From Candidatus Lumbricidiphila eiseniae (GTDB taxonomy: Bacteria; Actinomycetota; Actinomycetes; Actinomycetales; Microbacteriaceae), in the NCBI GenBank assembly GCA_002529645.1, contig NAEP01000059.1, positions 1 through 64,000 of the forward strand: a stretch of 64,000 nt of DNA, written 5' to 3'. The position numbers were made by a program, and so were the translations under genes. Shown here in pieces: positions 6,202 to 62,787 of the stretch (position 1 is its first letter; the number at the start of each line of letters is the position of its first letter). The notes below the pieces were generated by a model. It saw nothing but the letters and a program-made list of their open reading frames with translations. It had not been told where the DNA came from and did no database searches.

Positions 6202-6292
6202 GGACTCAACTCACTCAGGTGGATCGAACTCAATCCTTGTCAACATTGTGATCGGGGTCGGTGGGACTCAACTCACCCGGGTGGATCGAACT
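6202..6292. repeat. Two 29-bp direct repeats separated by 33 bp, in a gene-free stretch
   Basis: Copies at 6202-6230 and 6264-6292 differ at two positions. Each begins GGACTCAACTCAC and ends GGTGGATCGAACT, and the second contains the palindrome CACCCGGGTG. The 33-bp sequence between is unique. The 29 + 33 geometry equals one unit of a type I-E CRISPR array, but there are only two copies and no cas gene nearby. The rest of 6042-6427 has no recognisable gene. Confidence 0.7.
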
Positions 6293-6375
6293 GTGTCGAG
6301 ACGTCGCTGTGCTCAGAGACGATTCACCTTCCTCCGAAAGCACCGCAAAAAGCATGCGGTTTGCCTGATTATTTG

Positions 6376-6392
6376 CTAGGATTAAGTCCTAG
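6376..6392. promoter_or_regulatory. Palindrome CTAGGA-N5-TCCTAG upstream of the protease gene
   Basis: A perfect 6-bp inverted repeat with a 5-bp spacer lies in an AT-rich patch 36 bp before the protease reading frame. Its size and position suit an operator for a dimeric regulator, but no matching regulator gene is nearby and no clear -35/-10 pair can be fixed. It is not a terminator because no T-run follows. Confidence 0.4.
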
Positions 6393-6427
6393 AAATATGG
6401 CTCGCTAGGTTCTGGGGGACCGGCTGA

Positions 6428-8698
6428 GTGAGCAGAGAGGGGGACACCGTGATTGACGGGAGAGGTGTGAAGCGAGTTAGATTCGGGAAGGTTGTTCTTG
6501 CGACCGTTGCCGTGACGGCGACTCTGTTGCTGGGGGTCGTTGCGCCCACCCGGGCGGATGGGGGCGAGCCGAAAGCGCCGGTCTCGGGTGCAGTGTTCGA
6601 CGCTACGGCGAAGTCATTGCTGGCCAGTGAAACGACCGCAGCCGTGTCGGCCGATGGCGAGGGTAACGTTGTTCTCTACTCGACAGCTCCGGAGGGTCAG
6701 TTAGCACCCGACGCACAATCGTTCGCGGATTCCCACTCGAATGTCGTTGTTGAGCACCTTGATGCACCGCTCACCGCGTACTCAGTCAATGATGTCGTCG
6801 GCGGATCAGGCATGCTCCTGAACCATCCCAATAACACAACGGGCACCGTTTATGCGTGCTCTGTCGGGTACGGTGCCTGGAGCTCGACCGGATCGCCCGT
6901 GGTGCTCACCGCCGGTCACTGCTCGAATGACGGTGTGGAGACCAGCGCCAGTGCGGCTGACCCCACGCGTGACCCGGCAGGTGGTGGCACAGCAGGTGGA
7001 GGGGTGTCCTCGCTCGGGTCGTTGGGGACGCTCGCCTTCTCGCAGTTCGGCGGAACGGGCAACACCGTCGCCAGTGAATCAGACCCGAACGCAACCGACG
7101 TTTCGGTCTATACAGTGTCGAACCCGAGTAAGACCATCCTGCCGCGTGTGACCGACTGGAGAACCGCAGCATCCAAAGATCTCGCGGCATCCTCCTTCCC
7201 CATTCGCAAGGTGGGCACTGTCCAGACGGGGTCTATTGCACGCTCGGGACGCACAACCGGATATCAGACCGGAACCGTTGCTAGCGTGGGCGGCTGGGCC
7301 ACTGTCAGCGGTCGGTACGTGTACGGTTTTGGCAGCTGGGTGACGAGTGACCACGGCGATTCTGGTGGAGCGGTGTTCCAGGGGGACACCGCCGTTGGGC
7401 TTGTCTCGGGTGGCGGCACCTCCAGAGGGCGATCCTTCATGTGGGCCGCTGATCTGACAACGGCACTCCGAGTTGCGGGCAGCTATGAGGTTGCGCTGTT
7501 CATTGACCCTCCCGCTGTATCAAGTCCGGCGAACAGCGCCACAGTGCTGCCCGGAACACTCATCACCGGAACTGGAGCCGCTGGAACAACCCTGAAGGTG
7601 TACCAGGGTTCCAGCACAACACCGGCCACCGTCGCCGTGAACTCAGCGGGCAGGTGGAGTTTTTCTGCCCCTACCACTCCAGGCTCGTATCAGTATCGGT
7701 TCGTGTTATCGAAGGGGTATGACAATTCAGCGCCAGTGACATGGAACATCGTCGTTTCTGCTCCCAGCTCGACACCAACAACTGCGCCAACCCCCACGAT
7801 CACGCCAACGCCAACGCCAACGCCAACGCCGTCGGTTTCCCCTCCGCCGGTTGCGGATGGTCTGTATCGGTTGAACACTCCGGGTGGTCAGGCTTTGGAT
7901 GTTTCGGCTGGGGGAACCACTGATGGCACAAAGGTGCAGATTTGGTCGGATAACGGGACCGCCGCCCAGATCTGGCAGGTCACGTGGCAGGGCGATGGTA
8001 CCTATTCGGTGGTGAACCCCAGGTCGGGAAAGAGTCTGGATGTTAATGGTGGCAGGTCAGATAACGGTACCCAGGTGCAGATTTATACCGGGAACGGTAC
8101 GTGTGCTCAGAGGTGGAGCATCGTGGCGAATGGGAGCGGTTATTCACTGTTGTCGGCGTGCTCGGCGAAAGCCCTGGATGTCTCGGCCGGCGGAACCGCG
8201 AACGGCACGAAGGTGCAGATCTTCGACCGAAACGGCACCTCCGCACAAACCTGGTTCTTCAACCGTATAACCGCGCCGGTTGCGGATGGTCTGTATCGGT
8301 TGAACACTCCGGGTGGTCAGGCTTTGGATGTTTCGGCTGGGGGAACCACTGATGGCACAAAGGTGCAGATTTGGTCGGATAACGGGACCGCCGCCCAGAT
8401 CTGGCAGGTCACGTGGCAGGGCGATGGTACCTATTCGGTGGTGAACCCCAGGTCGGGAAAGAGTCTGGATGTCAATGGTGGCAGGTCAGATAACGGTACC
8501 CAGGTGCAGATTTATACCGGGAACGGTACGTGTGCTCAGAGGTGGAGCATCGTGGCGAATGGGAGCGGTTATTCACTGTTGTCGGCGTGCTCGGCGAAAG
8601 CCCTGGATGTCTCGGCCGGCGGAACCGCGAACGGCACGAAGGTGCAGATCTTCGACCGAAACGGCACCTCCGCACAAACCTGGTTCTTCAACCGCTAG
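6428..8698 (+). CDS. Secreted trypsin-like serine protease with two ricin-B lectin modules
   Basis: The protein has a signal peptide (VVLATVAVTATLLLGVVAPT then RADG) and a chymotrypsin-fold domain with all three catalytic residues in view: His in VVLTAGHCSNDG, Asp in ATDVSVYTV and Ser in HGDSGGAVF. An Ig-like module follows (about residues 360-440), then a Thr-Pro linker of repeated TPTP, then two ricin-B beta-trefoil modules of 143 residues each carrying Q-x-W boxes. The lectin modules should bind carbohydrate and tether the protease. The two modules are almost base-identical. GTG at 6428 is the longest start; GTG at 6449 has the better ribosome site (AGAGAGGGGG) and still leaves a signal peptide. 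Monocistronic. Confidence 0.9.
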   Translation: MSREGDTVIDGRGVKRVRFGKVVLATVAVTATLLLGVVAPTRADGGEPKAPVSGAVFDATAKSLLASETTAAVSADGEGNVVLYSTAPEGQLAPDAQSFADSHSNVVVEHLDAPLTAYSVNDVVGGSGMLLNHPNNTTGTVYACSVGYGAWSSTGSPVVLTAGHCSNDGVETSASAADPTRDPAGGGTAGGGVSSLGSLGTLAFSQFGGTGNTVASESDPNATDVSVYTVSNPSKTILPRVTDWRTAASKDLAASSFPIRKVGTVQTGSIARSGRTTGYQTGTVASVGGWATVSGRYVYGFGSWVTSDHGDSGGAVFQGDTAVGLVSGGGTSRGRSFMWAADLTTALRVAGSYEVALFIDPPAVSSPANSATVLPGTLITGTGAAGTTLKVYQGSSTTPATVAVNSAGRWSFSAPTTPGSYQYRFVLSKGYDNSAPVTWNIVVSAPSSTPTTAPTPTITPTPTPTPTPSVSPPPVADGLYRLNTPGGQALDVSAGGTTDGTKVQIWSDNGTAAQIWQVTWQGDGTYSVVNPRSGKSLDVNGGRSDNGTQVQIYTGNGTCAQRWSIVANGSGYSLLSACSAKALDVSAGGTANGTKVQIFDRNGTSAQTWFFNRITAPVADGLYRLNTPGGQALDVSAGGTTDGTKVQIWSDNGTAAQIWQVTWQGDGTYSVVNPRSGKSLDVNGGRSDNGTQVQIYTGNGTCAQRWSIVANGSGYSLLSACSAKALDVSAGGTANGTKVQIFDRNGTSAQTWFFNR
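7846..8697 (+). repeat. Near-identical 429-bp tandem duplication encoding the lectin modules
   Basis: The segment starting at 7846 recurs at 8275 with a period of exactly 429 bp (143 codons). The only difference I noticed is a silent GTT/GTC change. Such identity points to a very recent duplication or continuing gene conversion. Unequal recombination between the copies would change lectin copy number without disturbing the protease frame. Confidence 0.9.
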
Positions 8699-8720
8699 CC
8701 TCCACTGCCCACATCAAACA

Positions 8721-8807
8721 GCTCACCCTTGCACGGGCCCGGAGTTGTGCCCCGTTTTTACTCGGACTCGGCGAGGGTGATGCTCACCCTTGCGCGGGTA
8801 CGGAGTT
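8721..8807. repeat. Two 26-bp imperfect direct repeats, 61 bp apart
   Basis: GCTCACCCTTGC at 8721 and 8782 opens two 26-bp copies ending CGGAGTT with three differences (copies 8721-8746 and 8782-8807). The interval is 35 bp. They lie between the protease gene and pyrR; the first overlaps the probable terminator of the protease gene. Confidence 0.65.
8734..8759 (+). terminator. Probable terminator after the protease gene
   Basis: CGGGC and GCCCCG can pair around a 10-nt loop and are followed by TTTTT (8755-8759), 36 bp after the protease stop codon. The stem is short and includes one unpaired or wobble position, so this is a moderate call. Confidence 0.5.
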
Positions 8808-8890
8808 ATAGTGCCGCTTCGCTGGGCGAATCGAGGTGTGCGCCCGAGGCATCCGCACCCACTAAACTGAACCGAGTTGGCAACCTTTAA

Positions 8891-8919: not shown

Positions 8920-8920
8920 C

Positions 8921-9466: not shown

Positions 9467-10473
9467 GGCACCTGCTGCGCACCCGTGACCTCACCCGCGA
9501 CGAGGCCATTCACATCCTTGACATTGCGCTTGACATGGCAGCCGTGCAGAACCGTGAGGTCAAGAAACTGCCAACGCTGCGCGGCAAAACCGTTGTCAAC
9601 CTGTTCTTCGAAGACTCCACTCGCACCCGTATCTCGTTTGAAGCCGCCGCCAAACGGCTCTCCGCCGACGTCATCAACTTCAGCGCACGAGGCTCCAGCA
9701 TCTCCAAGGGCGAGTCGTTAAAAGACACCGCACAGACACTGCAAGCACTCGGTGCCGACGGGGTTGTCATTCGTCACCCGGTGTCAGGCGCGCCGCAGGT
9801 GCTTGCGGTGAGCGGATGGATCACGGCGGGGGTCATTAACGCGGGAGATGGCACGCACGAGCACCCGACACAGGGGCTCCTCGATGCCTTCACGATTCGA
9901 CAGCGGGTGCACGGTGCGGGTGCACGCGGTCGAGGGCTCGACGGGGTGCGGGTCATCATTGTGGGGGACATCCTGCACTCGCGGGTGGCGCGATCCAACG
10001 TGTGGTTGCTCACGACCCTTGGTGCCCACGTTCATCTCGTCGCACCGCCGACGCTGCTACCGGTGGACACATCAGGGTGGCCGGTGACAACCGGGTTTGA
10101 TTTGGATGGCGCGCTGGCGGGGCATCCGGATGTTGTCATGATGCTGCGCATTCAAGAAGAACGGATGCACGGCTCGTTTTTCCCCTCCTCGCGAGAATAC
10201 ACGCGAACCTGGGGACTGGACGGCCCCCGCTTCCGTGCACTGCAGCCCGATACGATAGTGATGCATCCGGGTCCGATGAATCGGGGTCTGGAGATCGCAC
10301 CGATCGCCGCGGATTCCCCGCAGTCAACGGTGCGCGAACAGGTCGCGAACGGAGTGTCAGTGAGAATGTCGGCGCTCTACGTGCTGCTGTCGGGGGAGCG
10401 CGAGACAGCAACAGTATCCGGTGACGGTGCCACCGAACACCACGCGATTCAGCAACGGAGCGCAGCACAATGA
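9463..10473 (+). CDS. pyrB: Aspartate carbamoyltransferase catalytic subunit
   Basis: Joins carbamoyl phosphate and aspartate to carbamoyl-aspartate, the committed step of UMP synthesis in the cytoplasm. The carbamoyl-phosphate signature [19 protein letters not shown] is at residues 47-65, and [10 protein letters not shown] follows around 130. The length of 336 aa is normal for the family. The ATG overlaps the pyrR stop (ATGA), and its own stop overlaps pyrC in the same way, so translation is coupled along the operon. No pyrI regulatory subunit is present, as usual in Actinobacteria. Confidence 0.96.
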
Positions 10474-11885
10474 CGGTGTCAGAGCACACGCCCACACCAC
10501 CGAGCGCGACGTTCCACATCGTCGGCGCGCAACTGGTCACCGGCGAGCACGCCGACATCCTCCTTCGGGACGGTGTCATTGCGCAGGTTGGCACGGTGAC
10601 GGATGCTGCGGGGGCAACCCGCGTTGACGCGGACGGGCTTGTGGCCCTCCCCGGCCTGGTTGATCTGCACACCCACCTGCGGGAACCCGGATACGAGCAG
10701 AGTGAAACGGTGCTCACCGGCACACAGGCCGCCGCCGCGGGAGGTTTCACCGCCGTGTTCGCAATGGCGAACACACTGCCGGTTGCCGACACAGCGGGGG
10801 TCGTTGAACAGGTTGCGAGCCTCGGGGCGTCCGCGGGATACGCAATGGTGCAGCCCATCGGAGCGGTCACTGTCGGACTCGCGGGTGAGCGACTCGCGGA
10901 ACTCGGCACAATGGCGGCATCCCGCGCCCGCGTGCGGGTCTTCTCCGACGACGGACTGTGTGTTTCCGACCCGTTGCTCATGCGGCGGGCACTGGAATAC
11001 GTGAAGGCGTTCGACGGAGTCATCGCTCAGCACGCGCAGGATCCGCGGCTCACGGTCGGGGCGCAGATGAACGAAGGCGCCCTCTCGGGGGAGATCGGCA
11101 TGGTGGGATGGCCCGGCGTCGCCGAAGAGTCCATCATCGCCCGCGATGTACTGCTGGCCGAACACGTCGGCAGTCACCTGCACGTCTGCCACCTCTCGAC
11201 AGCGGGATCGGTGGAGATCGTTCGGTGGGCAAAGGCGCGGGGCATTCGGGTCACCGCCGAGGTGACACCGCACCACCTGCTGCTCACCGAGGAACTGGTG
11301 GCCAGCTACGACCCCCGGTACAAGGTCAACCCGCCACTGCGCCGCGCCGAGGACGTCGCCGCTCTGCGGGACGCACTCGCCGACGGCACAATCGACACCG
11401 TCGCGACCGATCACGCCCCGCACCCGATCGAGGCGAAAGAGTGTGAGTGGGATGCCGCGGCCAACGGCATGGTCGGCCTCGAGTCCGCCCTCTCGGTTGT
11501 GCACGAAGCGATGGTTGCAACAGGTCTTATGGGGTGGGCGGATGTCGCACGGGTGCTGTCTGCGACCCCCGCGCGCATCGGGCGGCTCACAGGTCACGGG
11601 CGACCGATTGCGACGGATGAGCCGGCTAACCTCACGCTGTACGACCCGCGCGGGAGATCCTCCTTTGATCTGGCTCGGCTCGTTGGCCAGAGCTCAAATT
11701 CACCGTACCTGGGCCGTGTGTTACCCGGGCGAGTGGTCGCAACATTCCACAATGGCTACCCCACGCAGCTCGACGGTGTTGTTCGACCAGCCGAGGAGGT
11801 CGCCGCCGCTGCCCGGTTGGCTGAGCAGCGCGGTCGATCGGACACCCCTGAGGACAACGGACGACATCGGTTTACCCGGTCGTGA
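10470..11885 (+). CDS. pyrC: Dihydroorotase
   Basis: Type I (long) dihydroorotase that cyclises carbamoyl-aspartate. Zinc-binding HxH lies in [31 protein letters not shown] and [13 protein letters not shown] supply further metal and active-site residues. At 471 aa it is longer than the roughly 430 usual because of a charged C-terminal tail ([20 protein letters not shown]). The DNA encoding that tail contains one copy of a 19-bp repeat that recurs at 11904-11922, after the stop. ATG overlaps the pyrB stop. Confidence 0.95.
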
Positions 11886-11924
11886 CGAGGAGATTGACAG
11901 GGGCACCCCTGAGGACAACGGAGG
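11840..11924. repeat. Direct repeat pair at 61-bp spacing across the pyrC stop
   Basis: CACCCCTGAGGACAACGGA occurs at 11843-11861 inside the pyrC tail and at 11904-11922 in the spacer before the next gene. With two mismatches the match extends to about 24 bp. The second copy lies just 5' of GAGGGAAGG, the ribosome site of the next gene. The spacing of 61 bp equals that of several other repeat pairs in this window. Confidence 0.6.
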
Positions 11925-11937
11925 GAAGGTAACGGGC

Positions 11938-19225: not shown

Positions 19226-20296
19226 ATGAGTGAACGGCTGCGATGGGGCATCCTGGCAACAGGCGGAATTGCGCGAAAAGTAACCGGTGATCTGCTGGCC
19301 AACGGGTTCACCGTGGCCGCGGTGGGGTCTCGTTCGCTCGCAAAGGCAGAGGCATTTGCGGCGGAGTGTGGAATTTCTCGCGCCCACGGGTCGTATCGAG
19401 AGCTCACCGCAGACCCCGGGGTTGATGCGGTGTACGTGGCGACACCGCACCCCTTACACGCTGACAACGCGCTGCTCGCGCTGACCGCGGGTAAGCATGT
19501 GCTTGTAGAAAAACCCTTCACCCTCAACGCCGAACAAGCGCAGGCCGTGGCAACCCGGGCAGCTCAGACACAGTTGGTCGTGCGTGAGGCGATGTGGACA
19601 AGGTACCTGCCGCACATGGTGCGGGTGCACGAGATCATCGCGGCGGGCACCCTGGGGGAGGTGCGCACCCTCATCGCCAATCACACGCAGCTGCTCAGCA
19701 GCGACCCTGCTCACCGGATCAACGCACCCGAACTGGGCGGTGGGGCACTGCTTGATCTGGGAATTTATCCGGTGTCGTTTGCGTGGGACCTGTTTGGTGA
19801 GCCCAGCAGTGTGCGTGCGGCTGCGAGTTTTGGCACGACCGGGGTGGACTCGCAGGTCGTCACGGTGTTGACCTATTCGTCGGGACAGGTCGCCTCGCTC
19901 TGCGCCTCACACATCGCGCGGGGGCCGAATATTGCGATGCTCCTGGGTTCCGAAGCTCGGATTGAGATTGACTCGGTCTGGTACCAGCTCGCAAACTTCC
20001 GGGTGATCGCCAATGACGGAACCGTGTTGGAAGAGTACCGGTCACCGGAGGTGCTCGGTACGGGGCGACACTTCCAGTTCAGAGCGTTTGAAGAGATTGT
20101 TGCGGCCGGTGGTGACCGGAACCCAGATCAGCGAGCATTCAAGAGTGCGCGGGAGTCTCAGGGTCGGCTGCCGGTTACCGAGTCGGTTGCGATTATGAAC
20201 ACTCTCGACCGGGTGCGCGCGCAGATCGGGCTGAGGTACCCGGGTGAGGATCGGGTACCTCCGGGCGAGTTCCCGGGGTCCGTGAGCTGTGAGTGA
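19226..20296 (+). CDS. Gfo/Idh/MocA-family NAD(P)-dependent oxidoreductase
   Basis: 356 aa with an N-terminal Rossmann domain (RWGILATGGIARKVTGDLLA) and the family signature GKHVLVEKPFTLNAEQAQAV with the EKP lysine. The C-terminal substrate domain has GGGALLDLGIYPVSFAWDLF, typical of sugar or trans-dihydrodiol dehydrogenase relatives. The substrate cannot be read from sequence. It sits between gmk and rpoZ, genes usually adjacent in Actinobacteria, so it is likely an insertion into a conserved neighbourhood. Start ATG 19226; the upstream spacer of 125 bp shows nothing I recognise. Confidence 0.88.
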   Translation: MSERLRWGILATGGIARKVTGDLLANGFTVAAVGSRSLAKAEAFAAECGISRAHGSYRELTADPGVDAVYVATPHPLHADNALLALTAGKHVLVEKPFTLNAEQAQAVATRAAQTQLVVREAMWTRYLPHMVRVHEIIAAGTLGEVRTLIANHTQLLSSDPAHRINAPELGGGALLDLGIYPVSFAWDLFGEPSSVRAAASFGTTGVDSQVVTVLTYSSGQVASLCASHIARGPNIAMLLGSEARIEIDSVWYQLANFRVIANDGTVLEEYRSPEVLGTGRHFQFRAFEEIVAAGGDRNPDQRAFKSARESQGRLPVTESVAIMNTLDRVRAQIGLRYPGEDRVPPGEFPGSVSCE

Positions 20297-20492
20297 CCCC
20301 CTCTCATCCGACACCGCAGGCCACGGGAACCCCGGAGTTCGTGAGCTGCGGGTGACCTGTGAGCATCGTTGTCGCATCAGTGTTGTCGGGCCACTCGGGC
20401 TGAGGTCGTAGACTTGGTGGGCACGCGTCAGCCTGTTGCGGCGTGTGTATCGCGCGGGGCGAGCCCCGCGGCATCCATTTCAAGGAGTCTTC

Positions 20493-20750
20493 ATGGCTGA
20501 GAAGCTGTCCGGCATCATCGACCCGCCCATTGACAACCTGCTCAAGCGGGTGGACTCGAAGTACCAGCTCGTCATTTTTGCGTCGAAGCGGGCTCGACAG
20601 ATCAACGACTACTACGCCGACCTGCACGAGGGCAGCATGTACAACAACGTTGGGCCGCTCGTTGATTCCGCGATTGACGACAAGCCGCTCACGGTGGCAC
20701 TGCACGAGATTCACGAGGAGAAGCTTCGGCTTCGACCGATCGGCGAATGA
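20493..20750 (+). CDS. rpoZ: RNA polymerase omega subunit
   Basis: 85 aa, assembles around the beta-prime C-terminus of RNA polymerase. [20 protein letters not shown] and [13 protein letters not shown] are the signature helices, and the C-terminus [19 protein letters not shown] is typical for Actinobacteria. ATG 20493 follows CAAGGAG at good spacing; the open frame runs further upstream but without homology. The stop overlaps the coaBC start as ATGA. Confidence 0.95.
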
Positions 20751-22183
20751 GCTCGGGTGCCTCGGTGAACCCCGAGGGCGGGTCTGCGCAGCACGCGGGC
20801 GACACCGGGTTGCGGCGGTGCCGGGAAAACGACACTGGCGGGTCTGCGCGGCACGCGGGCGACACCTGCCCTGAGTGGACGGCTTCTGCTCGCGATCACC
20901 CCGGGTTCTCGGGCCGGGATGACTCCGGCCCCCGACTGCGGATTGTCGTTGGTGTCACCGGCGGAATCGCGGCGTACAAGGCTGTCTTTCTCGTGCGCGG
21001 GTTTGTGCTCGACGGACACGATGTGCACGTTGTGCCGACGGCAGCCGCGCTCCGATTCGTGGGACTGCCGACCTGGGAGGCAATTTCCCGCAATCCGGTG
21101 AACACCGACCCCTTCGACGACGTCGCTGAGGTGCGACACGTGGCACTCGGACAGAGCGCCGACCTTATTGTCATTGCCCCTGCAACCGCGAACTCGCTCG
21201 CGAAACTCGCCACCGGGCTTGCCGATGACCTGCTCGGCACGACGGTGCTCGCGAGCGAGGCACCGCTGGTCATCGCACCCGCCATGCACCGCGAAATGTG
21301 GGAGAACGCGGCGACGCAGGCAAACATTGCAACGCTGCGCGCCCGCGGGCACACGGTGGTTGGCCCCGGTGACGGGCAGCTGACCGGCGACGACCGCGGC
21401 GTTGGTCGGATGTCGGAGCCGACGGAGATCGCGGCAGCGGCGCTGGCGGTGGTTGTTGCCTCGACCGGTAGACGTACGAGATCGGCTGACCTGGCCGGTG
21501 CGCGTACGAGATCGGCTGACCTGGTTGGTCAGCGCATTCTCATCACGGCTGGCGGCACTCGCGAGCCGCTCGACCCGGTGCGGTTTTTTGGCAATCGCTC
21601 GAGCGGTCGGCAGGGTGTCGCACTCGCTGAGGCGGCGATCGAACGTGGCGGCGAGGTCGTGTTTATAGCGGCGAATCTGGAGGTTCCGGAGCCGGGTGGA
21701 TGTGACATCCACCGGGTCTCAACAGCCGCGGAGCTGCGTGAGGCTACCCTGGCTGCTGCGGGCACCGCGCGCATTGTCATTATGGCGGCAGCGGTCGCCG
21801 ATTATCGTCCCGTCACCGTGAGCGAGACAAAGATCAAAAAACAGGGGGATGCCTCGCTGACGCTGACGTTTGTGGCGAACCCAGATATTCTTGCGGAACT
21901 TGGGCACAGCTCGCACCCGGGAACCGTGCTCGTGGGCTTTGCCGCAGAAACTGAACCTGAGGATGCCCAGTTGCTGCGGGTGGCGCGGGCGAAGCAGGAG
22001 GCGAAGGGTGCTGACATCCTGGTTGTCAATCGGGTTGGGTGGGACACCGGATTTGGGGACGCGGACAACGAGGTCGTTGTGCTTGGTGCCGCGGGCAGGG
22101 TGCTTACGAGCACGAATGGATCGAAAATGTCGGTGGCTCATGCCATCCTCGATGCAGTGCTCGCCCACGACACCCCCACCTGA
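20747..22183 (+). CDS. coaBC: Bifunctional phosphopantothenoylcysteine decarboxylase/synthase
   Basis: Two steps of coenzyme A synthesis. The flavin-dependent CoaC part starts at residue 64 ([20 protein letters not shown], with [19 protein letters not shown] and [11 protein letters not shown]); the CoaB part starts near 262 ([31 protein letters not shown]). The first 63 residues are a low-complexity extension with a 30-bp duplicate at 60-bp spacing ([10 protein letters not shown] / [10 protein letters not shown]), and the linker between the domains carries a 30-bp tandem repeat (RTRSADLAG / RTRSADLVG). No alternative start near residue 60 is in frame, so the extension is probably translated. 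ATG is coupled to the rpoZ stop. Confidence 0.92.
20777..20866 (+). repeat. 30-bp direct repeat at 60-bp spacing in the coaBC N-terminus
   Basis: Copies at 20777-20806 and 20837-20866 (starting GGCGGGTCTGCGC, ending GGGCGACACC) differ at one base and are separated by exactly 30 bp of unrelated sequence. The unit of 60 bp keeps the reading frame. The palindrome CTGCGCAG lies in the first copy. Confidence 0.75.
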
Positions 22184-23413: not shown

Positions 23414-25885
23414 ATGAGCAGCGGTGCGCCGGGAGTGGGCGGCGAGAGCGTCGGCAGCGTTCGTGTGTCCGTAGAGCACCGTGATGCGTCCACCGTGGGC
23501 TCTGGTGGGATACCTGTGGGCTCTGGTGTGCTCCCTGGTGCCCGCAGGTCACAGGAGCACGAGCACGCGCTAACCGCGGCGGAGCGCACGAGGCCGGAGC
23601 ATTGCGGGTCACCGGAGCACGGGGGCAGGGTTGTGCGGGTTCTTATTGATTCCCCGCTGCCACAGCTCGATCAGTTGTTTGACTATGCGATTCCGGAGCG
23701 GTTGAGCGAGATGATACGGGTCGGAGTGCGGGTGCGGGTGCCGTTGCGTTCTGGTGGCCGGATTGCGAACGCCTGGGTTATCGAAGTCGTGACGGAGAGC
23801 GCGTTCGTGGGGAAACTGAGTGAGCTGGACGATGTTGTCTCAGCGGTTCCGGTGCTGACACCGGAGGTGTGGCGGCTTGTGCGAGCCGCCGCCGACCGAG
23901 CCGCGGGAAACGCGAGCGATATCCTGCGACTGGCGGTCCCGACACGATACGTGCGGGCTGAGAAAACCTGGGCGGCGGCGGCGGCGGTTGGTTCGCTCAC
24001 GGCTGCACACCCCGGAGCCGATGAGGCCCGCTCGGTTCCCTCCGCCGCAGTAGACAGTGCGCGCTCGATTGACGGGGGTGTCTCGACCGGAACATCGGTG
24101 GGAGCCCCGGCAGTTGTCATTGCGGGGTACGAGCCGGGACGGGTGGAACGAGGGATTGACAGCGGCGAACGTCTCGCACTGGCTGCCGCCCCGCAGCCAC
24201 TACACCTGCCCACCGGACACTGGGTAGCGGCGTGGGCGAGCACTCTTGCCCACGCCGCGGCGTACACCGTGGCTCAGGGCAAATCGAGCATCCTCGTCGT
24301 TCCCGATTATCGGGACCAGGAACAGCTCGAACACGCCCTCGCCGCCCTCGTGCACACCGGAGTGATCCACCCGGACCGTATTCTGCGCACTGACGCTCGT
24401 CAGCCGGGTGGTACTCGGTTCCGCGACCACCTCCGCGCCACCACTGGCCGAGCGCACATCATCATCGGAAACCGGTCGGTCGTCTATGCGCCGGCTGACC
24501 GGCTCGGGCTTATCGCACTGTGGGACGATGGCGACCCTCTTCACGCCGAACCGCTCGCACCGTACGTTCACGCGCGTGACGCCGCCCTCATCCGACAGGA
24601 ACAATCCGGTGCCGCCCTGATATTTCTCAACCACAGCGGCAGCGTTGAGCTGGAGCGTCTGTGTGAGATTGGCTGGGTTCACCGCGTTCCCCCGATCCGG
24701 CCGCTGCATCCGCGGGTCATTGTGACCGAGAACCAGGAGACACCGGAACCCGGCTCCGCCCGTATCCCATCGCTGGCCTGGCGGCACGCGCAAGACGCCG
24801 TGAAGGAAGGGCCCGTGCTCGTGCAGGTTGCCCGGCCCGGCCATACGCTCCTCTACGTCTGCGGCGGATGTCGACAGGTAGCACGCTGTAGCACCTGCCA
24901 CAGTGCCCTCATGACCCCCCGCAGCAGACCGGAACCTGTTGGGGCTGCTGCCTCGAGCGTTCGCGAAGGGATGACCCGGGGCCCGGCCCGCCACCGTGTG
25001 AGCACCCCCGTTCTGGCCGAGCCGCCGCACGGTGGAACAGGTATTCAGCTGCCCCGGCCCGGCCCGGGAAAAAGTGGGCCGTCGCCGCACGGTGGAACAG
25101 GTTCGCGTGGAACGGGTTTGCGTGGAACGGGTCCGCACTGTCCCCTGTGCGGACCGCTGTCACGGTCGTGGTGCTGCCCCGAGTGTGACAGCACACAGCT
25201 CCGAGCCGCGACGATTGGAGCGACCCGCACGGCCGAGGAACTCGGCCGGGCATTTCCCCGCACCCTCATCGTTCTCGCCGACGGCGAGCATTCGGTTCTC
25301 ACTGTCCCCGCAAAACCCGCTCTTGTTATCGCGACCCGAGGCGCCGAACCGGTTGCTGAGGGCGGATACCGGGCGATCCTGCTCCTGGACGGTGACCGGA
25401 TGCTGCTGCGCGAATCCCTCCGTGTTGCAGAAGACTGCCTGCGGTGGTGGTCGAACGCTGCCGCGCTCGCTGCACCACAGGCACCGGTGTTTCTCGTCGG
25501 CGTCGGCGGACAACTCGCCTCGGCGTTGGCCGGGTGGCGGCAGTCCCGGTGGACATCGGCGGAGTTCGCGGCTCGCCGTGAGCTCCGCTTCCCTCCCGCC
25601 GTACGGGTTGCGACGTTGACGGCACCGCCATCAACGCTCGCTGCGGTCATCGCCGCCGTGCAGGCGGAAGTACCGGAGGTCGACGCGCTCGCAACGATAC
25701 CGGTTGAGCAGGAACTCAGCCGGGTCATCCTGCGCTTTGACTATGCGCAGGGAGCGAGCGTCGCTCGTGCCCTGCGCGCCGAGAAAATTCGCCTCGCCAC
25801 CGCACGTCGACGTCCTGTTGCGGGACGATCGCCGTCACCACTACCGAAGCTGCGGGTTTGTTTCGATGACCTGACCGCGCTGTGA
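23414..25885 (+). CDS. priA: Primosomal protein N' (PriA), actinobacterial form without helicase motifs
   Basis: Replication-restart protein. The N-terminal DNA-binding domain starts RVLIDSPLPQLDQLFDYAIP. The Walker A site expected in the helicase core is missing (ASTLAHAAAYTVAQGKSSIL) and the DEAH box reads ALWDDGDPL, as known for Actinobacteria, so it is unlikely to be an ATPase. Zinc-binding Cys pairs are visible (VCGGCRQVARCSTC; CPLCG; CPECDS), but about 65 low-complexity residues with a 60-bp-spaced repeat (PHGGTG) split them. The first 73 residues are also low-complexity; GTG 23633 would start at the conserved region and may be the true start. Confidence 0.88.
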   Translation: MSSGAPGVGGESVGSVRVSVEHRDASTVGSGGIPVGSGVLPGARRSQEHEHALTAAERTRPEHCGSPEHGGRVVRVLIDSPLPQLDQLFDYAIPERLSEMIRVGVRVRVPLRSGGRIANAWVIEVVTESAFVGKLSELDDVVSAVPVLTPEVWRLVRAAADRAAGNASDILRLAVPTRYVRAEKTWAAAAAVGSLTAAHPGADEARSVPSAAVDSARSIDGGVSTGTSVGAPAVVIAGYEPGRVERGIDSGERLALAAAPQPLHLPTGHWVAAWASTLAHAAAYTVAQGKSSILVVPDYRDQEQLEHALAALVHTGVIHPDRILRTDARQPGGTRFRDHLRATTGRAHIIIGNRSVVYAPADRLGLIALWDDGDPLHAEPLAPYVHARDAALIRQEQSGAALIFLNHSGSVELERLCEIGWVHRVPPIRPLHPRVIVTENQETPEPGSARIPSLAWRHAQDAVKEGPVLVQVARPGHTLLYVCGGCRQVARCSTCHSALMTPRSRPEPVGAAASSVREGMTRGPARHRVSTPVLAEPPHGGTGIQLPRPGPGKSGPSPHGGTGSRGTGLRGTGPHCPLCGPLSRSWCCPECDSTQLRAATIGATRTAEELGRAFPRTLIVLADGEHSVLTVPAKPALVIATRGAEPVAEGGYRAILLLDGDRMLLRESLRVAEDCLRWWSNAAALAAPQAPVFLVGVGGQLASALAGWRQSRWTSAEFAARRELRFPPAVRVATLTAPPSTLAAVIAAVQAEVPEVDALATIPVEQELSRVILRFDYAQGASVARALRAEKIRLATARRRPVAGRSPSPLPKLRVCFDDLTAL
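25021..25102 (+). repeat. Direct repeat at 60-bp spacing in the priA zinc-domain insert
   Basis: CGCCGCACGGTGGAACAGGT occurs at 25023-25042 and 25083-25102, exactly 60 bp apart; one flanking mismatch extends it to 22 bp. It is followed by a second, shorter repeat (GCGTGGAACGGGT twice, 14-15 bp apart). The repeats encode PHGGTG and RGTG motifs in a linker that interrupts the zinc-binding region. Confidence 0.7.
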
Positions 25886-33576: not shown

Positions 33577-33696
33577 GCGCCAGCCCCGTCCGCTCCGAAC
33601 CCTGTGCGAGGGTCGTGCCAGCCCCGTCCGCTCCGAATCCTGTGCGAGGTTCGTGCCAGCCCCGTCCGTTCCGAACCCTGTGCGAGGGTCGTGCCA
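33577..33696. repeat. Three 38-bp tandem repeats between trp membrane gene and dapF
   Basis: Units start at 33577, 33615 and 33653 with a fourth partial at 33691. Each contains GCCAGCCCCGTCCG and CCTGTGCGAGG and differs from the others at 1-3 bases. They begin 3 bp after a stop codon and end about 44 bp before the dapF start, so they fill the intergenic region and may affect transcript end or start. Confidence 0.85.
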
Positions 33697-34810: not shown

Positions 34811-36430
34811 GTGGCACATGTCGAAACTCGTTTGCCCGTCGGTACGCGCGAGCTGTTGGAGTCACCGGCCTCGGGTGTTGCGTCTGCCTCTGTGCCCGTC
34901 GGTACGCGCGAGCTGTTGGAGTCACCGGCCTCGGGTGTTGCGCTGCCTCGTGTGCCCGTCGGTACGCGCGAGCTCTTGGGGCAAGTGAACGCGGCGCAAC
35001 TTGTTCTCGTGTTGTGTGTTTTCACCTGGGGGGCTTACCAGTGTTTTTGGAATCTTGCCGCAGCAAATATCGGCCCGGACGAGCCTGTCTATCTGAAGGC
35101 TGGTCTTGAGTATATCCGCGGTGATTTTTCCTACAACCGTGAGCACCCGCCCACGGTGAAATTCCTACTGGGAATAGCCCAATTACTCTTGGGCGAGGGG
35201 CAGATTGCCGGTCGGGTGCTGACCGCTTTGGCGGCGTACTCCGTCGGAGTCATCCTGTGGTTCTGGCTGAGGAGGGAGATAGGGTGGGCAGGAGCCATTA
35301 CTGCTGCCGGGTTCTGGTTGATACTGCCGCACGGTTTCTACGGTAATGTCCGGCTGGACAGGATTACTCTTCTGGAACCATTCATGGTTCTCTTTGTGGT
35401 TGCTGCGATGGCATCCGCATGGCGGTGGTGGCGAACAGGAAGTCTCTGGTACGCAGCAGCGGCAGGTCTTTTATTCGCACTATCGGTGACATCTAAGGTG
35501 ACCGCAATCGTCATGATTCCGGTGTTTATTCTGTTAATGGTCATCCGGCGCCCGTGGAAAAAATCGGTGTGTGCTGCCGTGTTGTTCATGATTATTGGGT
35601 GTGCTGCTGCAGTTGCCCTGTACGCACCGATGGACATTCAATCGGCACTTACCTACATGGTGGATTATCAGTCAGCGCACAATGGAAACGGGCACCTTGT
35701 CTCGATTGCCGGGATGGTCACTCGTTATCCACCGTGGTGGGCAAATCTGTGGTTTCTTGCTGCGGGGATGGGTGCTATTGCACTTATTGTCGTCGGAGGA
35801 CTCACCACCGTTTCACTCCTGTCGAGGTACCGCGTTCTCACCGCATATCTCGCCGTGGCTTTGGGTCTGCTGGTGGTGTTCTATCTTGTGATATCTCGTG
35901 TGGCCCTGCCGCACTATTACTACGCCTGGGTGTGGCTACTGTGTGCTCTGGCGGGTGTTGGTGTGTCCGTGCTTCTCACCGGGCGAAACGGTGCCACCAC
36001 ACTCGTGAACAGAAGACGAAAATCTATTCAGACATTGACGCTTGTTGCGGTCATATTATTTTCGTTGATCAGCGGCATAACGGCGTCTGTGCGGGTGTGG
36101 AATGAGCGACCAGCGGGGGCCGCCCTTGTTAGCGCAAGATTGGCCGATGCGGGCCTGTCGAAGGGCCTAATTTACGTGGAGGGGCTTGCCGGATGGGAGT
36201 TTGTTCCGTACCTTGGATCACGTATCACCTCATCACTGCAGGATGCATCGCTTGTCGGAATTATAATTGGCTTGGGCCCAACCGATAGTGTTCCACCTTC
36301 ACCCGAGTTTGTACGAGCACTCATAAACAACCCGGATATTTTTGAGGCCGTCAAAATCGATCGCATCTGCCTGTTTATTATCCGTGATAAAACCCGGGCG
36401 TTAACCCTTCTTGCCCGGGTGCACAATTAG
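34811..36430 (+). CDS. GT-C type membrane glycosyltransferase (GT39/ArnT-like)
   Basis: 539 aa with about ten hydrophobic segments. IGPDEPVYLKAGLEYIRGDF carries the acidic pair of the first extracytoplasmic loop and YNREHPPTVKFLLGIAQLLL is the second hallmark of lipid-linked sugar transferases of the PMT/ArnT type. The donor is probably a polyprenyl-phosphate sugar; the acceptor is unknown. The first 55 residues contain VPVGTRELLESPASGV in 20-residue repeats (60-bp units). GTG 34811 after GTGGAG is my start; TTG 34772 is in frame upstream. The gene is AT-richer than its neighbours and may be acquired. Confidence 0.78.
   Translation: MAHVETRLPVGTRELLESPASGVASASVPVGTRELLESPASGVALPRVPVGTRELLGQVNAAQLVLVLCVFTWGAYQCFWNLAAANIGPDEPVYLKAGLEYIRGDFSYNREHPPTVKFLLGIAQLLLGEGQIAGRVLTALAAYSVGVILWFWLRREIGWAGAITAAGFWLILPHGFYGNVRLDRITLLEPFMVLFVVAAMASAWRWWRTGSLWYAAAAGLLFALSVTSKVTAIVMIPVFILLMVIRRPWKKSVCAAVLFMIIGCAAAVALYAPMDIQSALTYMVDYQSAHNGNGHLVSIAGMVTRYPPWWANLWFLAAGMGAIALIVVGGLTTVSLLSRYRVLTAYLAVALGLLVVFYLVISRVALPHYYYAWVWLLCALAGVGVSVLLTGRNGATTLVNRRRKSIQTLTLVAVILFSLISGITASVRVWNERPAGAALVSARLADAGLSKGLIYVEGLAGWEFVPYLGSRITSSLQDASLVGIIIGLGPTDSVPPSPEFVRALINNPDIFEAVKIDRICLFIIRDKTRALTLLARVHN
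34833..34980 (+). repeat. Three 60-bp repeat units at the start of the glycosyltransferase gene
   Basis: TGCCCGTCGGTACGCGCGAG heads units at 34833, 34893 and 34953, exactly 60 bp apart. Units 1 and 2 share about 50 bp; unit 3 has diverged after GAGCT. In frame they encode a 20-residue repeat. A further tandem pair (TTCTAGATTGTCGCAAGGTG type, 22 bp apart) lies just upstream at 34669-34710. Confidence 0.85.
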
Positions 36431-36780: not shown

Positions 36781-36929
36781 ATCGGAACGTTCGCGGGCGC
36801 AGACTGCGGAACGTGTGGCCGCGGCTATCCTGAAACGGATCAATCGGAACGTTCGCGGGCGCAGACTGTGGACTCCGACCGAGCGCTTCTGGTACAGCTT
36901 GGCATCGGAACGATCGCGGGCGCAGAGCG
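36781..36929. repeat. Three-unit CRISPR-like repeat series with two unique spacers
   Basis: A 26-bp element (ATCGGAACGTTCGCGGGC plus GCAGACTG) lies at 36781 and 36843 identically and at 36904 with three changes. Intervals are 36 and 35 bp and unrelated to each other, so the period is 62 then 61 bp. The last copy is the degenerate one, as in terminal CRISPR repeats. No leader, no cas genes and only two spacers, so I call it a repeat and not an array. It ends 4 bp before the stop of the minus-strand methyltransferase gene. Confidence 0.7.
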
Positions 36930-50791: not shown

Positions 50792-50799
50792 TTGTTGGT

Positions 50800-52386: not shown

Positions 52387-52429
52387 TTCGGTGGTGTTGG
52401 GCACCGGAGCGGTTCGATAGCATCGAACC

Positions 52430-53527: not shown

Positions 53528-53536
53528 GCTGAACGC

Positions 53537-54780: not shown

Positions 54781-54822
54781 ATTACCTGGTGGGCCTCGCA
54801 CCGCGACCTGAGCTGATCGACA

Positions 54823-59547: not shown

Positions 59548-60496
59548 GACCCGCGGGCTAGGAGCCGACGGAACGGGTGCTAACGCCCATGAGCCAGAAA
59601 TCGATAGAGCGGGTGTCGATGCACACCGACCTATCGTGCAGCGTTCTCTGGCAGATATGTCAGGTGTGACAGCCACGGACTCGGCGGGCACCCCGTGGGC
59701 GGGGCGCCGGTTTCTGTCCAACCCCCACACGAACGATGATGGCCGGATGCCCGAACCACTGCGCGCCGTGCTTGCACAGTTTCATCGTGGCGAAGTAGAC
59801 CAAGACGAGGTAGTCCGAGAGTTCGCCCGGTCGCGACTGCTTGTGCCACTACTCACCGAACTCGGCGATGGTGGCGCGGTGGTCGGAGCACACGGGCTCG
59901 CCATCGACAAGTCACAAGAACTGTCGATTGTGACCGTCACCGGACCGGAGGGTCGACGAGCGCTGCCAACATTTTCTTCCGTTGAGTCGATGGCCCGATG
60001 GAATCGGAACGCTCGCCCGGTGCCCAGCGACGGGGTGCGGGTGGCGCTCGCGGCGGCATCCGACGGCACCGAACTGGTCGTACTTGATCCGAGATCCGAC
60101 ACAGAATTCGTCGTGCGTCGCCCTGCACTGTGGGCCATCGGACAATCACGAGAGTGGCAGGTACCGTGGCGGTCGGAGCTGGTGCGGTCAGCATTCGAAC
60201 GGTCGATCGAACGTGAACTTGCCGTGCTCGCCGTGTCGTTGATGCCGGGCGATCCACAGGCGAGACTGCAGGCCCCCGAGTTAATTGCGCGGTTGCAGTT
60301 GATCGCAGGGCTGACGCGAGGGGAACTCGACGCGGTAACGGAGCGTCTTGCACGTCGCTGGGCCACTGACGACGCAATCGCAGAGGGCGTGGATTCGCTC
60401 GCGGTTCAATTGGTCACAGCCGGGTTGGACGATTCAGAATCGGGCAGTGCGGAGTGGGATGGCTCAGAATTTTGGGGTGAAGGACTCGTACAGTGA
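59531..60496 (+). CDS. SseB-family protein
   Basis: 321 aa. Residues about 70-200 form an SseB N-domain ([73 protein letters not shown]). The role is unknown in Actinobacteria, where the gene often follows hisA. ATG 59531 overlaps hisA; ATG 59659 would trim a 43-residue unconserved start. ATGA-like overlap with the next gene. Confidence 0.82.
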
Positions 60497-62061
60497 GCCC
60501 CTCACAATCAGAACTTCGGACCACCGGGCACGATGCACCCTCCGGTCTCGAGCCCTTATTGATGCACGCGACTGACAGCGCAGCGCAGCGCACCAGGCCG
60601 ATCGGCAAGTTTTCCGGGCGTGCCGGTGTGAGGTGGGGCCCCGAACCCATCGATACGCGCCGTCCACTGGTCGTTCGCTTCCGCGGGCGTGAGTACCGTT
60701 GGTGGATCGCGGTGCTCTCTCTCTACGCGGCATCCCGATTGCTGAGCACGACGTTCATGCTCACTCTGTATCTTGTCGCAACCGCCGCCCACTGGCCGTT
60801 CGCGAGCCAACGGGAAAACCCCACCTTTTTCACCTTTTCCGGGTCGTGGGATTCTTCGTTCTACCGCCGCATCGCAGAGACCGGCTACCCGACAATTCTC
60901 CCCACCGACCCCACCGGAAGTATCCTCCCCAATCCCTGGGCATTCTTGCCAGTATTCCCCTGGATCGTGCGAGTCATCACGGTTGCCACGGGTCTTGAGT
61001 TTTACCCGGCCGGAGTGTTTGTCGCAACACTCGCCGGTGCGGGCGCCGCGCTCACACTCTTCCGGTTGGTAGCTGCGCGAGCGAGCACACACGGAGCGAT
61101 CTGGGCAACTGCGTTCTTCTGTTTCAGCCCGGTCGCATTCATTCTGCAAACGGCATACGCCGAGAGTCTATTCTTTCTGTTTGTATTCGCGGCCCTGTGG
61201 GGGATGATTGCACGGCGCTACTGGCTGGTTCTCCCGATTGGTGTCCTCGCTGCATTCACCCGTCCCGGCGCACTTGCGATCCCATTGGCGCTCGCGATCA
61301 TCGGGGTGGTTCGGCTGCGGCAGTCACGGCGGATGGCTCGACCGAGACATCCTGCCGGGATGACCCGGGTAGCGATGTGCGAACACTCCGACCCCACTGG
61401 GCAGTCGTGTTCGCCTGGTTCTGTTGGGCAGTCGTGCCTACTCGGTCCCGCCGGACAATCGTGTTCGCCTGACTCTGTTGGGCAGTCGTGTTCGCCTGAC
61501 TCTGTTGGGCAGTCGCGTTCACTCGACTCTGGAAGTCGGTCACACCTGCCCGACCGGTTGCCGGTGCGCGATATCGTCGCGATCACCACAACCGGGCTTG
61601 TGACGGCCGTGGCCGGCCTGGGGTGGCCGGTGATTGCGGCGGCAGTGACGGGGGTGCCCGACGCCTACCTGCGCACCGAGCTTTCCTGGTGGACCGGTTT
61701 TGTCGGTCACGTGTCATTTGTGCCGCTCACTCCGTGGTTCATTTTTGCGAACACCTACCTCGGCATTGGAGGTATCCTGCTGGTCGCATCGGTTCTTGCT
61801 GGCCTCTGCTGGCTGCTGACCCGCCGATCAGTGCGGGTATTGGGGGTGGAAATTGTCGGTTTCTCGTCGGCGTATCTGCTCTACCTCATCGCGGTTTTCC
61901 TCCCCCAGCAGAGCACATTTCGGCTGCTTATGCCGCTCGCCCCGCTCGGCGCGGCACGCGGTCTCACCGAGTACCGTGCACCACGGCGAGCCCTGCTGTT
62001 CGGCGGAATGGCGCTGCAACCGGTTGCGCTGGTACTGCTGTGGTTTGTCGGCTACCCGTGA
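60493..62061 (+). CDS. PIG-V-like membrane mannosyltransferase
   Basis: 522 aa with about nine membrane helices. WDSSFYRRIAETGYPTILP (the WD..Y. motif), FLPVFPWIVRVI and YAESLFFLFVFAALWGM are typical of GT-C mannosyltransferases of the PIG-V/GPI type acting on lipid-linked mannose. A 27-bp repeat (5 units, GQSCSPDSV type) adds 45 residues to the cytoplasmic loop near residues 303-347, bringing in several Cys. GTG start overlaps the SseB stop. Confidence 0.82.
   Translation: MSPSQSELRTTGHDAPSGLEPLLMHATDSAAQRTRPIGKFSGRAGVRWGPEPIDTRRPLVVRFRGREYRWWIAVLSLYAASRLLSTTFMLTLYLVATAAHWPFASQRENPTFFTFSGSWDSSFYRRIAETGYPTILPTDPTGSILPNPWAFLPVFPWIVRVITVATGLEFYPAGVFVATLAGAGAALTLFRLVAARASTHGAIWATAFFCFSPVAFILQTAYAESLFFLFVFAALWGMIARRYWLVLPIGVLAAFTRPGALAIPLALAIIGVVRLRQSRRMARPRHPAGMTRVAMCEHSDPTGQSCSPGSVGQSCLLGPAGQSCSPDSVGQSCSPDSVGQSRSLDSGSRSHLPDRLPVRDIVAITTTGLVTAVAGLGWPVIAAAVTGVPDAYLRTELSWWTGFVGHVSFVPLTPWFIFANTYLGIGGILLVASVLAGLCWLLTRRSVRVLGVEIVGFSSAYLLYLIAVFLPQQSTFRLLMPLAPLGAARGLTEYRAPRRALLFGGMALQPVALVLLWFVGYP
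61399..61533 (+). repeat. Five in-frame 27-bp repeats in the mannosyltransferase gene
   Basis: Units begin at 61399, 61426, 61453, 61480 and 61507, each starting GGGCAGTCG or a variant and encoding GQSCSPDSV-like nonapeptides. Units 3 and 4 are almost identical, others decayed, as in a slippage-prone minisatellite. All keep frame. Confidence 0.85.
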
Positions 62062-62121
62062 GGTCGCCCTCCATGTGTGCTCTGCCAATTGGGATGCCCC
62101 GCCAGCAGAACATTGGCCGGG

Positions 62122-62787
62122 TCACACTCGGCTGTTGTAGCAAAAAATCTTGATATCGGCATTCGGGGCGAGCTCAATCTCGGTCAACCCACAGTTATCG
62201 ACGTACGGGAGGAGCCTCCGGTATCGATCAGCATCGAGTCCAAGCCAGTGGATCAACAGCAGCCGGATAAGCGTTGAGTGGGTGACCACGAACACCCGAC
62301 CGTTCGGATACTTCGACATCAGCTCCTCCAGCACCGGTGTTGCCCGAGCAACGGCCTCCTTCCCCGACTCCCCACCGGGCAAAGGTACGGTCGCGGGGTG
62401 GGACATGAAGGCGTGGAATTCGGCGGGGAATGCGATCTCCATCTCGGCTCGAGTCATCCCCTCGCCCGTGCCGAACGCGACCTCGCACAATCGTGCGTCG
62501 GTAGCAAGGGGGAGCTTCCGATGCCGCCAACGTCATTGCCGGGATGCAGGACGTGCGTCGGTAGCAAGGGGGAGCTTCACTGCCTTCGCGACGGGTGCAG
62601 CGGTATGGATGGCCCGCATCTGCGTTGATGAATACACGGCATCAAGCTGCAGATTTTGTGCACGCATGACCAGGTGCTCGGTTTGTGTGTTTCCGTGGTC
62701 AGTGAGCGGAATATCGCTCCGGCCGGCGTAGCGATTTTCGGCCTGCCACACCGTTTCCGCGTGGCGGACAAGAAAAAACCTGGTCAT
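62122..62787 (-). pseudogene. Histidine phosphatase (phosphoglycerate mutase family) interrupted by a 60-bp duplication with stop
   Basis: ATG 62787 opens MTRFFLVRHAETVWQAENRY (RHAET catalytic motif), then RSDIPLTDHGNTQTEHLVMR and AVYSSTQMRAIHTAAPVA. The frame stops at TGA (62533-62535) inside a 60-bp duplication. The same frame continues after it as LPLATDARLCEVAFGTGEGM, GESGKEAVARATPVLEEL and VFVVTHSTLIRLLLIHWLGL (second catalytic His). Without the extra 60 bp the product would be about 201 aa, normal for the family. Either a pseudogene or a reversible switch. Confidence 0.85.
62492..62578. repeat. 27-bp perfect direct repeat with 33-bp spacer inside the phosphatase gene
   Basis: CGTGCGTCGGTAGCAAGGGG plus GAGCTTC occurs at 62492-62518 and 62552-62578. 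The 33 bp between are unique and bring a stop codon. Deleting one unit (60 bp) restores an unbroken gene, so the insertion point is certain, which is unusual among the repeats of this window. Confidence 0.9.

Follow-up and report, generated by a model that had tools for sequence, protein, structure and literature searches.

We report that the genome of Candidatus Lumbricidiphila eiseniae is strewn with short repeat-interval-repeat units which, as read from its sequence, very probably represent promiscuous, largely self-derived off-target spacer integrations by its own type I-E Cas1-Cas2. The pattern itself is real and genome-wide. In a sample of 1,135,225 bp (40% of the host genome) in 63 stretches, counted with the two CRISPR arrays masked and with tandem-like and over-long matches dropped, we recovered 175 such units at 148 loci, with the two repeats offset by 59-63 bp and a peak at 61. 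The sample includes the window, the 64,000-bp stretch at the start of contig NAEP01000059.1, in which the initial annotation had pointed to eight such loci. A scan of the window for exact and approximate repeats finds all eight in place, with repeat sequences that differ from locus to locus, as had been claimed. They are listed here with a weaker candidate and the one gene of known strand that bears on them; the units themselves are given without strand:

6202..6292: unit 1, repeats 6202-6230 and 6264-6292 (29 bp, 2 mismatches), interval 6231-6263 (33 bp)
8721..8807: unit 2, repeats 8721-8746 and 8782-8807 (26 bp, 3 mismatches), interval of 35 bp
11843..11922: unit 3, repeats 11843-11861 and 11904-11922 (19 bp, exact)
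20272..20357: weak candidate unit, repeats of 27 bp (4 mismatches) at an offset of 59
20777..20866: unit 4, repeats 20777-20806 and 20837-20866 (30 bp, 1 mismatch), interval of 30 bp
23414..25885, plus strand: priA (NCBIfam PriA models), containing the in-frame unit 5
25023..25102: unit 5, repeats 25023-25042 and 25083-25102 (20 bp, exact), offset 60, within priA
34831..34979: locus 6, two units, repeats starting at about 34831, 34891 and 34951, offsets 60 and 60
36781..36926: locus 7, repeats 36781-36810, 36843-36872 and 36904-36926 forming two units with offsets of 62 and 61
62492..62578: unit 8, exact 27-bp repeats 62492-62518 and 62552-62578, interval 62519-62551 (33 bp)

By our own gene calls units 1 and 2 and locus 7 are intergenic, unit 3 overlaps the 3' end of a dihydroorotase ORF (10470-11885), and unit 4 lies within the ORF call for CoaBC (20747-22183), ahead of residue 65, where the CoaBC domain begins. 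The first two copies at locus 6 have 50 bp in common, and its two units and intervals are therefore near-copies of each other; the first of these units was counted by hand because the 50-bp match failed the length filter. The candidate at 20272 has a score of 15, the lowest accepted.

The offset distribution is sharply peaked rather than flat. A window scan for exact repeats of at least 16 bp at offsets of 5 to 2000 placed 7 of 20 repeats at offsets 60-62, with at most 3 in every other 10-bp bin; the 60-base print width of the sequence is therefore not the cause of the pattern, and the full offset scans of both the window and the wider sample reject such a bias. In the wider sample, the counts at offsets 59, 60, 61, 62 and 63 are 4, 57, 95, 13 and 5, respectively, those at 57, 58 and 64 are 3, 2 and 2, and the background outside 57-65 averages 0.27 per offset with a maximum of 3. 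Repeat length has its mode at 28 (39 of the 108 units scoring at least 22, followed by 23 of length 29 and 16 of length 27), and 24 of the 148 loci contain 2-4 units. Scaling by proportion from the 40% sample yields about 370 loci and about 440 units for the whole genome.

This geometry is that of a CRISPR system resident in the same genome. The initial annotation described the loci as lacking cas genes, which holds for the window alone: contig C67 carries a type I-E set comprising cas1, cas2, cas3, cse1, cse2, cas7, cas5 and cas6e. Thus, the cas1-cas2 pair that the annotation had suggested looking for elsewhere in the genome is present, with profile matches to TIGR03638 (330.8 bits) and TIGR01873 (63.9 bits) and to PF01867 and PF09707, and a genome search finds one Cas1 ORF. 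The canonical array combines a 28-bp repeat with 33-bp spacers (66 of 68 are 33 bp), and the scattered units share these dimensions (modes of 28 for the repeat, 33 for the insert and 61 for their sum); a degenerate second array lies at L181:7840-8166. None of the 68 canonical spacers matched self sequence in a smaller sample of the genome and one did in a larger sample, while searching the whole genome with the newest spacer gave one further self match; both of the newest spacers in the true array derive from self. Among phage records, the canonical array matched a single one, piecewise, with 35% of the query covered at 69.5%, probably in part via the repeats, and we claim no phage target.

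Comparison of the intervals with self sequence, another check that had been proposed, shows that many match remote loci of the same genome. Matches elsewhere in the sample were found for 49 of the 175 intervals, against 18 of 517 control 33-mers, with 25 on the minus and 24 on the plus strand. The homology to the source runs mostly from border to border and has its mode at 33 bp (22 of 46); for instance, the interval of unit 8 reproduces exactly, over 33 bp, a remote segment, C3:33919-33951, which adjoins AAAG. The identifiable intervals are thus self-derived. About half of the mapped sources bear a PAM-like AA just outside one end: it occupies positions -2,-1 at 21 of 80 source ends, so that 21 of the 40 sources have it, none of them at both ends, and the other 19 lack it; other flank positions give 0-9 of 80. 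The fraction of intervals with a found source (28%, 49/175) is lower than the sampled fraction of the genome (40%; binomial p 0.001 against all intervals being self), and three of the four window intervals searched genome-wide, those of units 1 and 4 and the first of locus 7, had no second genome match at up to 3 mismatches. Hence, some of the intervals for which no source was found may be foreign or too decayed. Divergence between the repeats of a unit correlates with divergence of its interval from the source under a recomputed measure (Spearman 0.35, p 0.016, n 48); a cruder measure that counted unaligned bases gave no significant relation (rho 0.11, p 0.44, n 49).

The target sites, in turn, display the C/G arms of the CRISPR repeat in register. 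Their arm score is 5.11 as against 3.45 (SD 0.13) for random 28-mers of matched GC content (n 89), with its peak at register 0, and on average they agree with the canonical repeat at 11.1 of 28 bases, as against 9.2 for GC-matched random sequence. The motif is nearly symmetric: orientation from the palindrome alone failed, with the fit favouring the canonical repeat in reverse, and as the sites could not be reliably oriented no fixed PAM-to-repeat polarity was demonstrated. Upstream of 30 PAM-oriented sites we saw no strong conserved leader-like or host-factor motif. The units differ from a functional CRISPR array, with its one conserved repeat and leader, in that their repeats vary between loci. 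Of the units within genes, 24 of 33 are in-frame (Fisher p 7e-6), a figure that is partly circular because a gene with a frameshift would not be called as spanning the unit, and that we therefore keep apart from the main evidence.

Several other processes could be imagined to generate such units. As a target duplication plus an insert is the general geometry of transposition, and as the role of Cas1-Cas2 is here read from sequence, a transposase or uncharacterized integrase that duplicates a fixed length of about 28 bp might have carried the 33-bp chromosomal fragments. We regard this as highly improbable, given that the lengths, the PAM-like flank and the palindromic target all fit the resident type I-E system, for which the genome search found one Cas1 ORF. 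Still less probable is that some 60 bp were duplicated by replication slippage, or locally in tandem, and that the middle part then diverged. Genuine tandem arrays do exist in this genome and the 50-bp match at offset 60 in locus 6 is what slippage would produce, but it predicts similarity of an interval to its neighbour, whereas the sources found for 49 of the 175 intervals are remote and match over about 33 bp; nor does it explain the PAM-like flank and the repeat-like target motif. Templated repair, in which end joining at chromosome breaks picks up short copied inserts, would likewise copy remote self sequence from either strand, as observed; however, it predicts neither the 33-bp length, the 28-bp duplication, the AA at one end nor the repeat-like targets, and the narrow length distribution also speaks against it, leaving it with a negligible probability.

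The sampled relatives lack the pattern. Offset scans of other organisms covered stretches of their genomes; in two genomes of the same genus, at 200 kb each, there were no matches at offsets 59-62, and Cas1 was found in none of the other 59 genomes of the genus searched. In alignments, 66 residues of PriA around unit 5 are missing in the relatives G062 and G068, and a second protein with a unit has extra residues that are likewise missing in relatives. The comparison with relatives envisaged in the initial annotation is hence borne out in part: extra residues are missing at two conserved genes, but no clean single-copy empty site is readable, the relatives being too distant (about 70% DNA identity) for this and the 66-residue gap in PriA exceeding one unit. 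A 993-aa ORF at L116 gave partial, distant matches in the protein search and was left out of account. That the loci are scattered remnants of ordinary arrays with decayed repeats, to which their CRISPR-like geometry, the palindromic repeats and the degenerate second array might point, is equally negligible in the face of repeats that differ by locus, the mean of 11.1 of 28 bases (random 9.2) that target sites have in common with the canonical repeat, the self origin of many intervals, the residues missing in relatives at two sites, and the lack of any shared ancestral repeat or leader seen at the loci.

The reading first advanced for these loci, off-target integration by a type I-E-like Cas1-Cas2, is thus supported by the offset peak, the presence of cas1-cas2, the self sources with a PAM-like AA at about half of those mapped, and the residues missing in relatives at two genes. 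We propose that Cas1-Cas2 picks up 33-bp fragments next to a PAM, for the most part from the cell's own chromosome, and inserts them into ordinary sites that have C-rich and G-rich palindromic arms like those of the CRISPR repeat. Attack at two staggered points some 28 bp from each other would duplicate the target, such that repeat (28) and spacer (33) add up to 61 bp, and some of the new repeats might be reused as targets to yield mini-arrays of 2-4 units. The insertions would survive mainly between genes or in-frame inside them. The low specificity may stem from poor recognition of the leader or from the loss of a host factor that confers specificity, possibly in addition to interference no longer policing self spacers. 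We further lean, with less assurance, toward the view that Cas1-Cas2 has escaped from the array to become an ongoing genome-wide insertion mutagen, responsible for hundreds of 60-61-bp, largely self insertions that seed mini-arrays and add 20-residue in-frame segments to working proteins, self/non-self discrimination having lapsed; the self-derived newest spacers of the true array are in line with such a lapse.

If correct, this proposal implies that a CRISPR integrase is able to reshape a chromosome and that CRISPR-like mini-arrays arise from ordinary DNA, which bears on how arrays originate. It would also furnish a large collection of natural target sites from which to deduce the rules of recognition, and would allow direct tests of what self-acquisition costs and how it is controlled.

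Off-target integration by Cas1-Cas2 is already known from the laboratory and in vitro; its natural scale is what is new here, and among the literature matches listed, the titles and abstract openings contain no report of genome-wide natural off-target integration. Nivala, Shipman and Church (2018, Nat Microbiol 3:310-318) reportedly found that off-target sites resemble the CRISPR locus, and are said to have named Yersinia pestis and Sulfolobus islandicus as harbouring several putative natural cases. Ectopic spacer acquisition is described, in the available excerpt, for Streptococcus thermophilus (PMC7999890); it resembles the present case in the insertion at an unusual place, but there apparently occurs inside a true array (type II-A) rather than across the chromosome. 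The E. coli Cas1-Cas2 is promiscuous in vitro and is corrected by IHF, according to the excerpted part of a review (PMC10011333); there too, integration strays from the array if the specificity factor is lacking, but on supercoiled DNA in vitro, whereas here it apparently took place in vivo over evolutionary time. The closest parallel is the non-canonical integration by type I-E Cas1-Cas2 of spacer-sized DNA at chromosomal sites outside the array, which excerpts of two papers place under Cas1-Cas2 overexpression and near IHF-like motifs (PMC11788318, PMC9456107, citing Nivala, Shipman and Church 2018). The units reported here share the enzyme type, the size of the insert and the chromosomal location, but are found in a natural genome, at 148 loci in 40% of it, with largely self inserts, mini-arrays and repeats at all stages of decay.

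All eight pairs of unrelated direct repeats that the initial annotation had placed at 60-62 bp offsets in the window, and ascribed to off-target Cas1-Cas2 integration, are indeed present (starting at 6202, 8721, 11843, 20777, 25023, 34833, 36781 and 62492). A scan of offsets 5-2000 in the window recovered 20 exact repeats of at least 16 bp, of which 7 lie at offset 60-62, with at most three in any other 10-bp bin; this peak settles the concern that the 60-base print width had created the pattern. The host draft genome (2.85 Mb, 73 contigs, the window being C73:1-64000) was sampled to 40% (1,135,225 bp in 63 stretches, the window counted in) and scanned for ungapped repeats with a score of at least 15, masking the two true CRISPR arrays and excluding tandem-like and over-long hits. 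Hits at offsets 59, 60, 61, 62 and 63 numbered 4, 57, 95, 13 and 5, respectively, against a background of 0.27 per offset on average and 3 at most (offsets 40-100 except 57-65), which predicts about 1.3 hits over the five offsets; the flat distribution that would have spoken against the proposal is thus not what the genome displays. Together with a unit (repeat-interval-repeat) at window 34831, removed by the length filter and restored by hand, we count 175 units at 148 loci, with one unit at 124 loci, two at 22, and three and four at one locus each. Scaled in simple proportion to the full genome, this corresponds to about 440 units and about 370 loci. Their overall density is 154/Mb, reaching 702/Mb in the densest of the longer stretches (L011, contig C35, 14,238 bp; 10 units in 14 kb). 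Looser scoring gave an excess of only 197 at the same offsets, and hence few very old units are hidden there.

Other repeats occur in the same sequences. The window contains a near-perfect 429-bp tandem duplication (7845-8694) within a gene (6428-8698) that encodes ricin-type beta-trefoil lectin domains, and short tandem arrays at 33579-33696 and 61398-61531, whose periods of 38 and 27 bp are apparently unrelated to the 61-bp units. On contig C25, an exact 58-bp tandem array (L009:13794-14343, a 492-bp self-match at offset 58) adjoins a candidate unit at L009 13742 and may be an amplified unit.

The enzymes invoked by the proposal are encoded elsewhere in the genome, on contig C67, which carries both type I-E cas1 and cas2:

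Type I-E CRISPR-Cas features on contig C67
L003:10312-11241, cas1, type I-E (TIGR03638, 330.8 bits)
cas2 (TIGR01873, 63.9 bits)
cas5, cas7, cse2, cse1, cas3 and cas6e, near cas1-cas2 and the array
canonical array with leader, 70 repeat cores and 68 spacers
L181:7840-8166, second, degenerate array of six repeats, beside a divergent cas6e

Cas3 scores above the cut-offs of its domain models and below that of the full-length model (262 of 569 bits). The canonical spacers measure 33 bp in 66 cases and 34 bp in 2, with one spacer present twice; for the first spacer of the degenerate array, L112 (contig C9) contains a partial match of 26 bp. At L003:11575-11728 the leader and first repeat are doubled as an exact 77-bp tandem, which makes the array's first interval a 49-bp leader copy.

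The canonical repeat, ATCCGCCCCGCACATGCGGGGGTGAACC, is 28 bp long, and this length and the 33-bp spacer match the modes of the off-target units: among 108 units scoring at least 22, the repeat is 28 bp in 39, 29 in 23 and 27 in 16, and homology to the source spans exactly 33 bp in 22 of 46 sources with at least 90% identity. The target sites also display a motif resembling the arms of the canonical repeat. An arm score, counting C at repeat positions 6-9 and G at 18-22, averaged 5.11 over the first units of 89 loci versus 3.45 (SD 0.13) in GC-matched random 28-mers, and dropped when the register was slid by a few bases. An orientation fit blind to the canonical repeat, using 68 units, likewise yielded C at 7-9 and G at 19-20. 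Sequence upstream of 30 PAM-oriented sites showed no strong motif.

Matches elsewhere in the host sample (at least 26 bp, at least 85% identity) were found for 49 of the 175 intervals; of 517 control 33-mers drawn from positions 300-900 bp distant, 18 matched. The interval sources lie on both strands (25 versus 24), 42 of the 49 in predicted coding sequence; comparing the best 33 bases, 14 of 48 ungapped sources are identical and 11 differ by one mismatch. In a first, smaller sample, G+C was 61.6% in intervals, 60% in the genome and 52.1% in canonical spacers. Origin from self sequence is thereby borne out in part: the interval at 62492 is an exact copy of C3:33919-33951, but those at 6202, 20777 and 36781 have no second match within 3 mismatches across the genome. 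As these three lack a source and the 28% with a source in the 40% sample falls below an all-self expectation (p 0.001), we estimate that perhaps 60-70% of intervals are recognizably self, the rest being decayed, lost or foreign. The PAM of the E. coli type I-E system is AAG. Among 40 sources with 31-36 bp homology, a PAM-like AA lies directly outside the insert at 21 of 80 ends, each belonging to a different source, as compared to 0-9 of 80 ends for AA at other positions. The 62492 source, outside these 40, has AAAG adjacent, with AA one base further out at a border ambiguous by one base.

By calls from a purpose-written gene finder, 99 units are intergenic, 43 cross a gene end and 33 lie within genes, as against 10%, 14% and 76% of random places. 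The offset is divisible by three in 24 of the 33, a partly circular statistic because a frameshifted gene would not be called intact. As to the empty sites looked for in relatives, a DNA identity of about 70% allowed a comparison at the level of extra residues in two genes: 66 residues of PriA (window 23414-25885) around the 25023 unit are missing in G062 and G068, and 42-47 residues around a unit in a 482-aa protein of contig C25 (L009) in the six aligned of 12 relatives found, but one unit accounts for 20 residues of such gaps, and the remainder may represent older insertions. The 175 units comprise 40 perfect repeats of at least 26 bp, 49 with one mismatch, 40 with two or more and 46 shorter. 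This mixed decay, with a weak correlation between repeat and source divergence (Spearman 0.35, p 0.016, n=48; 0.11 and not significant by a cruder measure), suggests insertion spread over time rather than a single burst.

The units are absent from the relatives sampled, with no hits at offsets 59-62 in 200 kb each of two same-genus genomes lacking Cas1. Three members of the order with I-E Cas2 (400 kb together, true-array repeats removed) gave three hits at 59-63: one in G039 and two in G037, where repeat pairs at L162:16166 and L167:9147 (offsets 59 and 61) share a ~22-bp sequence and look like a small repeated element. Eighty cas1 neighborhoods of other species (1.49 Mb adjoining arrays, true-array repeats again removed) gave 11 hits, of which 10 resemble repeats of CRISPR arrays and one, in L061, a tandem repeat; as these were all scans of stretches, further cases may lie elsewhere in the genomes concerned. 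Cas1 was found in none of the other 59 same-genus genomes searched and the I-E Cas2 family in none of 36, which suggests horizontal acquisition of the system; the nearest Cas1 shows 51-52% identity in a scan of species genomes from which very near records may be missing.

In the 40% sample, self matches were found for 1 of 68 canonical spacers versus 49 of 175 off-target intervals (Fisher 2.7e-7), and for none of the 66 older canonical spacers. Both leader-end spacers (L003:11728-11821) match the host genome: the first at C4:71863-71895, with one mismatch and AA not adjacent, and the second exactly at L201:9828-9860 (contig C24), with AA adjacent, in a predicted gene for a putative ABC-transporter ATPase (judged by eye). 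On one reading that fits, self spacers in an expressed array would have been lethal while interference worked, and off-target self inserts would be harmless as their repeats would escape processing; the self origin of the two newest spacers would then indicate a recent weakening of interference.

We infer that Cas1-Cas2 performs the insertions, probably with poor leader specificity. E. coli Cas1-Cas2 alone also integrates outside the array in vitro, with IHF as the specificity factor (PMC10011333), and DnaK curbs self-acquisition in E. coli (PMC10359635). Among the matches listed in a literature search that covered few subscription journals, none reported genome-wide natural, largely self-derived integration with mini-arrays. 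Nivala and colleagues reportedly noted putative natural instances of non-canonical integration in 2018. Such non-canonical integration of spacers, described by Nivala et al. (2018), is the closest known phenomenon; the L. eiseniae units work alike and display those of its features that could be fully tested. What appears to be new here, as far as is visible, is a natural, genome-wide and largely self-derived form with mini-arrays.
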